Below, in pieces: positions 1 to 21,732 of a DNA stretch of 32,463 nt. How positions within the stretch are numbered: the stretch's first letter is position 1; every line of letters begins with the position of its first letter. Under the pieces are notes generated by a model, which ran no database searches, was not told the origin of the DNA, and saw only the letters and a list, made by a program, of their open reading frames with translations. Origin of the DNA: Synergistaceae bacterium (GTDB lineage Bacteria; Synergistota; Synergistia; Synergistales; Synergistaceae); NCBI GenBank assembly GCA_030523725.1, contig JAUNHV010000013.1, positions 1-32,463 of the forward strand, read 5' to 3'. The position numbers and the translations under genes are program-made.

Positions 1-200
1 CCCCCCCCCCCGAACCCTTGCGCCGCAAGGGTTTACAACGTTTCGTGCGTGGGGGCTTTAGTTGTAAAGCCCGCCCTTGGCACGAAGCACGGTCTTTTAT
101 GTAAGAAATGGCTTTGCCATTCCCTTTATGTTAGCGTGGCAAAGCCACGCGCTTATGGCTAAAAAAACTTTATATAAGCCGCGTTAGCAGCGCTTTATGA
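1..200. repeat. Gene-free run of GC-rich hairpins after a poly-C tract
   Basis: The window opens with 11 C in a row and then a chain of perfect inverted repeats. Arms lie at 13-21/25-33, at 42-48/80-86 with a nested stem at 53-60/65-72, at 107-112/116-121, and at 134-140/144-150. The third and fourth hairpins share the core TGGCTTTGCCA in opposite orientation. The stretches between them repeat a TTTATG or TTATGGCT-like spacer. The region is far more GC-rich in its stems than the AT-rich genes around it and has no convincing reading frame. It may be a palindromic intergenic repeat cluster or structured transcript; the function is unknown. Confidence 0.6.
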
Positions 201-208
201 CTAAAAAA

Positions 209-236
209 GACGGTAACACGAAATCGTGTTACCGTC
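209..236 (-). terminator. Strong bidirectional terminator after the secretin gene
   Basis: A 13-bp perfect stem (209-221 with 224-236) has a minimal A-rich loop and is flanked by a T run on the plus side and an A run on the other, so it should work in both directions. It sits six bases beyond the secretin stop codon and closes that minus-strand operon. Confidence 0.9.
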
Positions 237-241
237 TTTTT

Positions 242-2044
242 TTATTCCATCAAAATATGCGGAATAGCTATAAAAGCAAGTTGTGATTTGTTATCCTTTT
301 CGCTTCTATTTTTGAAAAGTTCACCCAACAAGGGAATCTTTGAAATTATGGGGATACCTGTTGTTACCTTTGTCTTTGTATGTTCATATAATCCACCGAG
401 AACAAAAAGTTCACCATCACGCACTCGAATTTGCGTTGTTGCTTCGCGATTAGCCGTCTCTGGAACCTCAGATATACCTGATGTCCTGAATTTTACAATA
501 TCGCCAGCTTTTATTGTTATGGTAATTGTGATATAACCATCATTTCCAACAACTGGAGTAAATTCAAGTGTTGGGCCAGTTTCTTGTTCTCTAAACTGCG
601 GATTGCTACTTCTATCCACACCAGTCTGGTAAAGATAATTGTGCGTCAATTTTACAACTGCCTTTTGCCCATTAAGCGTAGCGATAGAAGGAGCAGCCAA
701 AACTTTCCCCTTTTCCTTCGTCTCTATTGCACGAAGACCAGCATCAATCATATGCATGGCATGATCAACTACTGCCGTTGGTGTATTAAGTGCTGTTTCC
801 GTTGCCACAATAGGAAGTTGACCTTGCTTTGTTTCACCGGTTGGGTTCACGTTGGGGACAACTCCCCCACCATAGTCCGTGTATCTTGCAGAAATTCCCT
901 TATTGCTGAAAGAAGCTATAAGACCATTATTCACTATATTGATCAGTTTTTCCACTTCCATATCAGCATCGTCTTTTACCTCGATAAGTCGAGCTTCCAA
1001 CATAACTTGTTTAGATGGCTTGTCAAGGCGAGTTATCATATCAGAAATTTGGACATGATCATCATGCGTAGCACGGATGTAAAGAGTTCTTAATCTTTCA
1101 TTTATGGTTATACCATTTTTAAGATCAAACATCTCCTTCAAATTTGCAACAATATCCTTAACACTTGCATAATAAATTGGATATTCCCGTACAATAAAGC
1201 GTCCCGTAGCACGAGCAATATTTTCCTTTGTACCAACAATTAACGTATTGCCAATGACACTATAGGAAATCTTATAAGTGTTAATTAAGTACGAAAACAC
1301 ATCGCAAAAACGGGACGATTCAAATTTTAATGATAACTCAGGATTTGGGAGCTCAAAGTCTGCCATAAAGTTCATCTTTAATTTTTCAGCCATAAAGCGA
1401 AGTAGATCATGCAAATAAATTCGTCTAAAATCCATAGCAATTTTAGTTTTGTTATTTATTGGGTCATCACTACTTCTTTGATTTGGTTTAATTTTACGAA
1501 GATCTTCTTCTGGAAACTTGTCTGCAGTTTCAACATAAAATTGAAATAATGTGCTACCTTCCGCACCATTGCAGCGTTTAACTACAAGTTTCTTGTTAGA
1601 AACAAATTTAAAAAATAGTTGATTATCCTTCATAGAAATATCTACACGCTGACACAGAGGGATCTGTGAAAAAAAGGTAAAGGTTTTATTGACTGAAACA
1701 TCAATTTGCGAGAAGCCTAAAAGCGATGAATCATTATGCTTAGGTTTTTTCGCTATGATATTACAATCACGAGGAGTTAACAAAATTTCCAAAAAATTTT
1801 CTGCATCATTTATGCTATAGCTCGGTAAATTTTCACCGGCAATCTCAAATAACATTTGAGAAGCTCCAAGTTGCCCCGCCTTTATACCATATATAACAGA
1901 TGGCTGGTTAGTCTTTGTAATTTGTGTCGCCTCATCTGCGTTTGTAGGAGTGGTATAAAAAACGGATAAGGCAATCAACAACAGGAAAACTTTATTCAGG
2001 ATTAATTTTAACCTATTTTTGTAACATAAATATTTCCTTGCCAT
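242..2044 (-). CDS. Secretin (PilQ/GspD family outer-membrane channel)
   Basis: Predicted outer-membrane secretin of a type IV pilus or type II-like secretion machine. A basic, hydrophobic signal peptide (about residues 1-38, ending near TNA) is followed by an AMIN-like beta-rich region (about 50-170), a short STN/N0-like domain (about 205-275), one N1 repeat (about 285-345) and the C-terminal secretin barrel (about 350-600). The C-terminus shows the family signature VRDGELFVLGGL, then GIPIISKIPLLGELF, then an AFIAIPHIL ending. A single N1 domain and the AMIN-like start resemble PilQ more than GspD. An ATG at 2044 is taken as start; a TTG at 2050 is closer to the AGAGGA ribosome site and is equally possible. 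The start overlaps the upstream gene by about 37 bases, suggesting translational coupling. A secretin implies an outer membrane. Confidence 0.9.
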   Translation of the reverse strand: MARKYLCYKNRLKLILNKVFLLLIALSVFYTTPTNADEATQITKTNQPSVIYGIKAGQLGASQMLFEIAGENLPSYSINDAENFLEILLTPRDCNIIAKKPKHNDSSLLGFSQIDVSVNKTFTFFSQIPLCQRVDISMKDNQLFFKFVSNKKLVVKRCNGAEGSTLFQFYVETADKFPEEDLRKIKPNQRSSDDPINNKTKIAMDFRRIYLHDLLRFMAEKLKMNFMADFELPNPELSLKFESSRFCDVFSYLINTYKISYSVIGNTLIVGTKENIARATGRFIVREYPIYYASVKDIVANLKEMFDLKNGITINERLRTLYIRATHDDHVQISDMITRLDKPSKQVMLEARLIEVKDDADMEVEKLINIVNNGLIASFSNKGISARYTDYGGGVVPNVNPTGETKQGQLPIVATETALNTPTAVVDHAMHMIDAGLRAIETKEKGKVLAAPSIATLNGQKAVVKLTHNYLYQTGVDRSSNPQFREQETGPTLEFTPVVGNDGYITITITIKAGDIVKFRTSGISEVPETANREATTQIRVRDGELFVLGGLYEHTKTKVTTGIPIISKIPLLGELFKNRSEKDNKSQLAFIAIPHILME

Positions 2045-2595
2045 TTCCAAACGATTTCCTCTTTTTTTATTTTTAGTAATAATGCTGTGCCGGAATAAAA
2101 TTTTTGTTTTTCCCTAATAAAAAGTTGCGTATTGCTATCTTCCACTTCAATTATTGCAGTTTTTGTCGATGAATCAAAGTAATATCCTTTGTAGATTACA
2201 TGGGGTGGCGAAACTAAAAGCACCTTGCCATTAGAAAAGAGCCTTTCTTGTGAATTATATGGATCTTCTAATAAGCAATATTCGTTCTCCTCAATTTCAA
2301 AAGCCAAATTTTGTAAATCGCTATCACGATACAAGGACTGATCAGCCATTGTATTTTTCAACCTAGTCCGATGACTAAAAAAGTTTTGATGCACACCAAT
2401 GTTTGCTTGGATCATTTTTGGAGCACGCACATAGCACAAAAGATATACCACAAGCAAGATATTTACCACGATTGCAATATAGAAAATCAATGAAATAGAT
2501 TTGAATATAGAAATTTGTTCGTCTATTGCGATTTTTTTCTCTTGAACTTCGGTTTGGGTACTACGATACTCGGTTAAATGCAACAACGATGCCAT
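2008..2595 (-). CDS. One-TM protein with GspC/PilP-like HR domain, secretin partner
   Basis: 195 residues. A short cytoplasmic N-terminus is followed by one membrane helix (about 36-57), a linker, and a small C-terminal beta domain (about 131-193). That domain begins PPHVIYKGYYFDSSTKTAII, continues with a charged turn and LFIREKQKFYSGTALL, and ends with KIKKEEIVWKWQGNIYVTKIG-type strands. This order (strand, 'kG-y', 'tAiIev', 'f-r', 'l-i', 'v-w-ng-i') matches the homology region of GspC and the globular domain of PilP, which dock onto the N0 domain of secretins. The gene lies directly upstream of the secretin and overlaps it. A GAGGCGG ribosome site precedes the ATG. The family call rests on fold-like pattern and position, not on strong sequence identity. 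Confidence 0.6.
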   Translation of the reverse strand: MASLLHLTEYRSTQTEVQEKKIAIDEQISIFKSISLIFYIAIVVNILLVVYLLCYVRAPKMIQANIGVHQNFFSHRTRLKNTMADQSLYRDSDLQNLAFEIEENEYCLLEDPYNSQERLFSNGKVLLVSPPHVIYKGYYFDSSTKTAIIEVEDSNTQLFIREKQKFYSGTALLLKIKKEEIVWKWQGNIYVTKIG

Positions 2596-2623: not shown

Positions 2624-4018
2624 CTAAGGCTTTTGTCTTTTCCCAATTAATGTCAGGTGCCTTGTCTGCCTGTAAAATATCAAAACAAATATAAAAATCT
2701 GTATTAATGAGGTAAGCGGAAGGGCAAAGCCAAGAGTTGTCATATTCGCATTTTTAATACCACTAAGTAGATAACTTGCAAAAATTCTAATACCAGCAGT
2801 TATAATACCAACAACCATTGGAATCTCCGTTCGCCCTATCCCCATAAAAAATCCCCCAAAGGAAAATACAAAACAAACCAGTAAAACATCAAAAGCAAAT
2901 GATCTTAGATATTGCGTAGCCTTTAGAACAACTTCTTTTTCATTAGTAAAGATGTGAATAAAAACTTCTGGAAATAGCTCCAGTGCTACAAGAATAAATA
3001 TACCTAAAGATGCACAGACTAATATTGACTGCTTTAGCACATTTCGTGCTCTGATGTATTTTTTTGCACCTACACATTGGGCAACCATAGCCCCAGTTGC
3101 AATATTAAAACTCATCGGTAGCAACATTGCAAAACCATCTAATTTGGTTACGACACCACAAGCAGCCGCGCCCGTAACCCCCTCCAACTTGCAAACTTGT
3201 CGAACTATAAAGATAAAGGAAAGACCTACTATACTAAACTGAATAGCACTGGGGAAACCGAGTCGTAAAATCCTAAGAAACTTATCTTTATATATTTTGA
3301 ACAGTTTTCTCCCGTGGCTGATCTGATAGTCACGAGCTGTTGCATAGTGATAAGCTAAAAATGCAGAGACACCCTGTGAAGCAACAGTAGCATAGGCAGC
3401 TCCAGCAGCACCTAATTTAAAACCACCTACTAGTAGAAGATCTCCCAAAACATTTAACATGCAGGAAATACCAACAAATATGAGTGGAGATACAGAATCA
3501 CCAAATCCGCGAAAGATAGCAGAAATTCCATTATAAAATAAAACCGTAATTAATCCCATTGAGCAAATAAAAACATAGTCTTTTGTTACAGAAAAACTTT
3601 CTGCTGGTGTTCCAAGAAACTGCACAAATTTATTTATATTGAAACACACAAAACACGAAACTAGAAGTGCGCACAATAGGCAGATTGAAAACTGCGTAGA
3701 TATTGTTTCTTTTATGTCTTTTTTCTGGCCAGCACCATAGTAATTACCTATCATTGTAGTTGTTGCAAAACAAAAACCAATAATAAAAGAGGAGATTGTG
3801 TGCATAAATTCAGCTCCTAATGCTACAGCAGACAATCCAACAGAATCTGTAAAATGTCCTACAATAATCATATCAACTGCACCATAGAGCGCTTGTAGTA
3901 AGTTCGCTAGCACAAGAGGAACAGCAAAGCGAATTAGCTCCGGTCTGATACTGCCCCGCGTTAAATTTTGTGCACCAGGAGAGATGAAATTCCTGATTTG
4001 TCTCACTATTTTATTCAT
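2624..4018 (-). CDS. MATE family multidrug/Na+ antiporter
   Basis: 464-residue integral membrane protein with about 12 hydrophobic helices, the usual length for MATE exporters, which drive drug or metabolite efflux with Na+ or H+. The N-terminal half carries the typical start (IRFAVPLVLANLLQALYGAVDMIIVGHF). A GDSVSPL/GD loop near mid-protein and the internal repeat (LRLGFPSAIQFSIVGLSFIFI) mark the second half. The substrate cannot be read from sequence. The stop lies 28 bases before the GspC/PilP-like gene with no terminator between, so all three minus-strand genes may share a transcript. The ribosome site is weak (GGGAAAGAAG). Confidence 0.92.
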   Translation of the reverse strand: MNKIVRQIRNFISPGAQNLTRGSIRPELIRFAVPLVLANLLQALYGAVDMIIVGHFTDSVGLSAVALGAEFMHTISSFIIGFCFATTTMIGNYYGAGQKKDIKETISTQFSICLLCALLVSCFVCFNINKFVQFLGTPAESFSVTKDYVFICSMGLITVLFYNGISAIFRGFGDSVSPLIFVGISCMLNVLGDLLLVGGFKLGAAGAAYATVASQGVSAFLAYHYATARDYQISHGRKLFKIYKDKFLRILRLGFPSAIQFSIVGLSFIFIVRQVCKLEGVTGAAACGVVTKLDGFAMLLPMSFNIATGAMVAQCVGAKKYIRARNVLKQSILVCASLGIFILVALELFPEVFIHIFTNEKEVVLKATQYLRSFAFDVLLVCFVFSFGGFFMGIGRTEIPMVVGIITAGIRIFASYLLSGIKNANMTTLGFALPLTSLIQIFIFVLIFYRQTRHLTLIGKRQKP

Positions 4019-21222: not shown

Positions 21223-21693
21223 TTATTTTTTTACTAAAATATATACTACATTTCCCTTGTCATATGTACCAGAATTATCTTGGCTTAATGTAGTATCTTT
21301 ATACAAGGGTATATCATCCTTCATTTTGAAAAGCCTAGTGGCAACACCACTATTGGCTTCCAAATTCCCTTTGCTAGCAGAGCCATCATATTTGACAAAC
21401 AGTGCTCCAGTATCACCTTCACCAGCTGATTCTAATGAAAAAGGAGTTCCCTCATATGAAACTGACGTATCCAAATACTCATTCAGATCACTAACTTTGC
21501 TAGGATATTTACCATTTTCAGAATAATACAGGACACATGCAGTCTTCACATTTTGCATATCTGAAACAATTTTCAAAGCCCGCGCCTTATCTGTGGCATT
21601 GCTGGATGATATAGCCAAAAGCCCTGACATAATTCCGATAATCGTTACAGCAATAAGAACTTCCAAAATCGTAAATGCTGAATGCGTTTTCAT
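21223..21693 (-). CDS. Type IV prepilin-like protein (class III signal)
   Basis: About 156 residues. A six-residue leader MKTHSA is followed by FTILEVLIAVTIIGIMSGLL, the classic prepilin start: cleavage before Phe1 and Glu at +5, then one hydrophobic helix. The remainder is a small globular pseudopilin-type domain with KTACVLYYSENGKYPSKVSDLNEYL, the GspG-like 'gkYP' region. A GTG three codons upstream is possible but too close to the AAAGGA site, so ATG 21693 is preferred. It heads the minus-strand envelope operon, far from any assembly ATPase or prepilin peptidase, but shares the window with the secretin at 242-2044. Confidence 0.85.
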   Translation of the reverse strand: MKTHSAFTILEVLIAVTIIGIMSGLLAISSSNATDKARALKIVSDMQNVKTACVLYYSENGKYPSKVSDLNEYLDTSVSYEGTPFSLESAGEGDTGALFVKYDGSASKGNLEANSGVATRLFKMKDDIPLYKDTTLSQDNSGTYDKGNVVYILVKK

Positions 21694-21732
21694 AGCGCAC
21701 ACGTCCTTTCTATTTTCTTACAATAACGGGTG

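Follow-up and report, generated by a model that had tools for sequence, protein, structure and literature searches.

HR domains, the docking of PilP onto the N0 domain of the secretin PilQ and the PilMNOPQ chain are established features of the T4aP (PMC4471445), and a review describes PilP and its T2SS counterpart GspC as lipoprotein or bitopic proteins (PMC4471445). PilMNO scored as essential for pilus assembly in Neisseria, and in Pseudomonas they may act mainly as a connector to the secretin (PMC4471445, PMC10191384, PMC6668835). Systems that do without MNOP are known as separate clades, namely T4bP, Tad and Com (PMC6668835, PMC10191384); the Com pili lack all four proteins (PMC10191384), and T4bP and Tad have no MNO homologues but use other inner-membrane proteins (PMC10191384, PMC6668835). 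Within a limited literature search, we found no T4aP that had lost MNO yet kept PilP-PilQ, which is a weak statement, and nothing specific on the pili of Synergistota.

Here we describe a pilP-pilQ pair that probably belongs to a T4aP from which PilM, PilN and PilO have been lost, in a genome-reduced Synergistaceae bacterium. The window, the whole stretch of DNA that was analysed (32,463 nucleotides), is an entire contig (C15) from its first base, with pilP-pilQ at the contig end (Table 1). The host genome measures 1.55 Mb in 15 contigs, with completeness rated 100%. A PilQ alignment scan of 84,980 species genomes returned almost only Synergistota, mainly Synergistaceae, and judged by these relatives the host is a member of that family rather than the diderm Firmicute suggested by the sequence-only reading. 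The contig start itself (window positions 1-200) opens with a C homopolymer, after which short words recur (ccgcaagggttt, ggcaaagcca), and is repeat-like at the assembly break.

Table 1. Coordinates of the pilus and DNA-uptake features in the window and elsewhere in the same genome
Feature	Location	Strand	Remarks
Terminator after pilQ stop	window 203..242	minus	perfect 19-nt inverted repeat and T tail
PilQ-type secretin gene	window 242..2050	minus	likely start ATG 2044; TTG 2050 alternative
PilQ secretin domain, residues 348-600	window 1009..251	minus	from model
PilQ N1, residues 286-343	window 1195..1022	minus	from model; one N1 only
PilQ N0, residues 203-273	window 1444..1232	minus	from model
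PilQ AMIN-like beta region, residues 51-175	window 1900..1526	minus	from model
pilP/pilQ overlap	window 2008..2050	minus	37 nt from ATG 2044, 43 nt from TTG 2050
pilP (HR-domain protein)	window 2008..2595	minus	195 aa, ATG start
PilP HR domain, residues 130-195	window 2208..2011	minus	linker between TM helix and HR domain
PilP TM helix, about residues 33-57	window 2499..2425	minus	hydrophobic segment
MATE family transporter gene	window 2624..4018	minus	28 nt upstream of pilP, in the pilO slot of relatives
Solitary T4P-lineage prepilin	window 21223..21702	minus	major-pilin-like by profile scores
pilC	contig C2, 40.9-42.1 kb		two T2SSF domains
pilB	contig C10, 35.7 kb (L025:7726-8787)		353 aa, behind serA
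Prepilin peptidase candidate	contig C10, about 44.4-45.1 kb		weakly A24-like
pilT and two prepilin-like genes	contig C5, about 172-174 kb
comEA-comEC	contig C3, 5.2-7.5 kb

The small protein encoded upstream of the secretin lacks a lipobox; its one stretch of strong hydrophobicity runs from residue 36 (KD 2.9). In its AlphaFold2 model, for which 50 homologues were supplied, a long helix (residues 12-104) contains the TM segment and is followed by a linker and a six-stranded domain of 62 residues (133-194; pLDDT 92-97). Curated PilP models of Pfam and NCBIfam gave no direct match to this protein or to 11 relatives; since they miss the whole lineage, we did not take them as a defining feature of PilP. 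Sequence-based profile searches of the PDB placed Myxococcus PilP at E 0.51 and 0.014 amid chance matches such as an ATP synthase b helix, and a fold search was therefore used instead. The top Foldseek match was the HR domain of GspC from the GspC-GspD crystal (3oss_C; E 1.9e-3, prob 1.00, TMt 0.80, 1.9 A), followed at ranks 2-9 by the PilP structures 3jc8, 2lc4, 2y4x, 2y4y and 2ivw together with PulC-HR and a further GspC-HR, the proteins behind these ranks being PilP of Myxococcus, Pseudomonas and Neisseria, PulC and LspC.

Sequence searches within the lineage connected the protein to pil loci. With the window protein left out of its construction, a PilP profile searched against fragments of the host genome matched the window ORF over its last ~80 residues (E 1.8e-10), and a second leave-out profile recovered the ORF at E 2.7e-5 (Z = 60,000). 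Used as a single query against 60 related genomes, the window protein gave 12 weak matches (E 2.5e-4 to 0.008), nearly all covering the last 60-80 residues; all 12 lie in pil loci after PilO, and nearly all are immediately 5′ of PilQ. Taken together, the HR fold, the operon position and the leave-out matches identify the window ORF as the PilP of the Synergistota lineage.

The adjoining secretin is of the PilQ type. TIGR02515 (PilQ) outscored the GspD model, profile scores were 438 bits for T4P PilQ against 44 bits for GspD, and PilQ structures headed the PDB profile search. The protein is complete across its conserved positions, shares 29-39% identity with the PilQ of relatives and is the only secretin of the genome. 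The window pair is thus almost certainly PilP-PilQ. Several elements of the sequence-only reading were borne out by these analyses: a C-terminal HR domain on a one-TM anchor, overlap of its gene with that of the secretin (37-43 nt; about 34-42 nt are kept in many relatives), and a PilQ-like secretin with one N1 and an AMIN-like start.

Comparison with relatives revealed how ordinary this PilP is. Their pil genes run PilC-pilin-PilM-PilN-PilO-PilP-PilQ-PilB(-PilT), with local variations, and most of the 80 named loci, if complete, read M-N-O-P-Q; PilP is flanked by PilO and PilQ in nearly all relatives with a complete locus, and overlap with pilQ is usual. A hydrophobic stretch lies around residue 30 in nearly all of the 62 PilP homologues, and even a loose lipobox motif is lacking in 57 of them, so the TM helix of the window PilP, which has no proteobacterial-type lipobox, is the usual anchor of its lineage. 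That anchor had looked GspC-like, and the sequence-only reading accordingly saw a mixed GspC/PilQ pair; as almost all PilP homologues of this lineage have a TM anchor and are encoded in pilMNOPQ operons, the protein is not part of a GspC/PilQ hybrid. The interest of the locus lies in the reduced machine surrounding pilP.

With the pilMNOPQ systems of Neisseria, Pseudomonas, Myxococcus and Synergistota the window shares the HR fold and the overlapping P-then-Q order, and its PilQ has the AMIN-like region, N0, N1 and secretin domain of T4aP PilQ. It differs in that PilM, PilN and PilO were not found and PilB has no N-terminal region; its PilP is held by a TM helix, as is normal for Synergistota, whereas PilP of Proteobacteria is a lipoprotein. 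Because none of PilM, PilN and PilO was detected, the machine is classed as a T4aP variant and not a standard T4aP. With GspC and GspD (PDB 3oss, 6hcg) it shares an HR fold borne on a single TM helix, but PilP stops at the HR domain without the GspC extensions, the secretin has no N2 or N3, and there is no T2SS neighbourhood.

The absence of pilM, pilN and pilO next to pilP-pilQ, already remarked in the sequence-only reading, extended to the whole genome in our profile searches. The first lineage profiles gave strong PilN and PilO matches in 52-53 of 61 genomes and none in the host genome; they also missed the real, divergent PilN, PilO and PilP of one relative (G039), and the PilM, PilN and PilO profiles were therefore rebuilt with that genome included. 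This relative carries a very divergent pilMNOPQ operon (L082:5050-10127), which counsels caution over claims of absence. In the host genome, the enlarged profiles found no PilM at E<=10 (the G039 copy scored 6e-51), a best PilN match of E 7.3 and a best PilO match of E 0.16, which is ComEC. Two candidates were set aside: a Pfam PilM match proved to be EutJ within a eut operon, and weak PilP/PilO matches at 6.2 kb on contig C3 fall in the ORF of ComEC. On these searches, PilMNO are probably truly absent from the genome, a conclusion that is well supported but not proven.

The remaining pilus genes are retained but dispersed: PilP, PilQ, PilC, PilB, PilT and pilins are scattered over five loci, and no fewer than eight of the pil genes have intact ORFs. 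The prepilin in the window is flanked by uvrA and a CdaA-like gene, distant from other pil genes. Profile scores favour the T4P over the T2SS lineage for this prepilin (78 bits as T4P major pilin versus 25 as GspG), PilC (114 versus 77) and PilB (266 versus 238), and by this measure every pil component comparable by score is of the T4P lineage. Of the four core parts of such a machine, the pilin, the platform protein and the extension ATPase are present; for the prepilin peptidase the genome offers a weak candidate (Table 1), a point against the reduced-T4aP reading. The sequence-only reading had proposed a reduced trans-envelope connector; the reduction holds, and on the scale of the genome, but the pair is not stand-alone, given PilB, PilC, PilT and T4P-lineage pilins elsewhere. 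Immediately after pilC, a pair of genes (L080:9361-18001) encodes large exported proteins, one of 2302 aa and one of at least 511 aa, that resemble each other at their starts.

Two of the retained proteins have changed markedly. At 353 aa, PilB is shorter than its counterparts in complete relatives (556-584 aa), and it lacks both the ~180-residue N-terminal region (MshEN/N1D) and the CxxC motifs of full-length relatives; with serA 7 bp upstream, there is no space for the lost region. Contact between the PilB N1D and PilM has been inferred from T2SS homologues (PMC11656802), and loss of this region therefore fits loss of PilM. In the PilC tree the branch leading to the host protein is very long, and its identity to relatives is only 23-26%, a divergence that fits either re-adaptation after partner loss or relaxed constraint and decay. 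Both PilB and PilT possess Walker A motifs.

We propose that the HR domain, borne by PilP's own stalk and TM helix, would dock onto PilQ N0, as suggested by its fold, which is that seen in the GspC-GspD pair, and by the contact already known between PilP and N0. The TM helix would then tether PilQ directly to the inner membrane, and docked PilP could centre the outer-membrane pore above a minimal PilC-PilB motor without a PilMNO ring, a two-component motor as in the Com pilus. The resulting pilus is, on balance, likely to be a working machine. The filament may mainly take up DNA, feeding ComEA and ComEC; the presence of the ComEA-ComEC set makes this a plausible main job, which we put forward tentatively. 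Like the monoderm Com pilus (ComGA-GG, ComC), the genome combines pilins, a short ATPase and a platform protein with ComEA and ComEC and no MNO, a likeness of component list alone; it differs in having PilT, PilP and a secretin of the PilQ type, and its genes score well with T4aP genes from within the family.

An ordinary T4aP with scattered genes, in which PilN and PilO (and PilM) are too diverged to detect or fall in an assembly gap, would account for the same searches. The pil genes of this genome do diverge fast, as the PilC branch illustrates, lineage profiles did overlook real PilN and PilO in G039, and the assembly is in 15 contigs with pilP-pilQ at a contig end. Nonetheless we regard such hidden partners as improbable: PilM is well conserved even in G039 and still went unmatched, the enlarged profiles found nothing, the genome is rated 100% complete, the place upstream of pilP where partner genes normally lie has been sequenced and is taken by the MATE gene, and PilB no longer has the domain that would contact PilM. 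The genes might instead be remnants nearing loss, with little or no function. Genome reduction, loss of operon order and of partners, the long PilC branch and partial loss in a relative (G005) would suit decay, which is nevertheless unlikely in view of the eight or more intact pil ORFs, the Walker A motifs of PilB and PilT, the two T2SSF domains of PilC, the complete conserved positions of PilQ, and the retained pilP-pilQ overlap and terminator.

A change of function, with PilP-PilQ now serving as a T2SS-like secretion or export channel, appears very unlikely. The HR fold is closest to GspC-HR and no T2SS was found in this genome, whereas other family members possess one; yet all components score with T4P, PilT and T4P minor pilins are retained, and the GspC extensions and the secretin N2/N3 domains are missing. 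The TM anchor and the best fold match to GspC-HR are also what a newly assembled, mixed connector of a GspC-like protein and a PilQ-like secretin in a diderm Firmicute would show, but PilP orthologues anchored in the same way are encoded in pilMNOPQ operons across Synergistota, and this evidence together with the taxonomy makes such a connector exceedingly improbable.

The reduced T4aP that we favour could, tentatively, represent a diderm pilus that assembles and crosses the outer membrane with only PilP, PilQ, PilC, PilB, PilT, pilins and a peptidase, after joint loss of PilMNO, the stator and alignment ring, and of the corresponding domain of PilB, a possible convergence on the minimal motor of the Com pilus combined with an outer-membrane exit. 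If true, a diderm without M, N, O and the PilB N-terminal domain but still with PilP, PilQ and the core of the motor would be a natural experiment separating the assembly role of PilMNO from their connector role. The reduced set also suggests which parts to take out of a laboratory strain and could test the need of a pilus for PilMNO.

Other reduced arrangements occur in the family. Relative G005 has a PilC-pilin-PilM-PilP locus without PilN, PilO or PilQ (L068, G005:C52:506-3742), and its sole secretin is a T2SS GspD on a different contig; as this set is reduced as well, partial pil loss may recur in the family. Relative G002 retains a PilC-pilin-PilM-N-O-P-PilB-PilT locus without PilQ (L083, G002:C134), and because its sole secretin is a T2SS GspD (L084), its PilP might share the T2SS pore.
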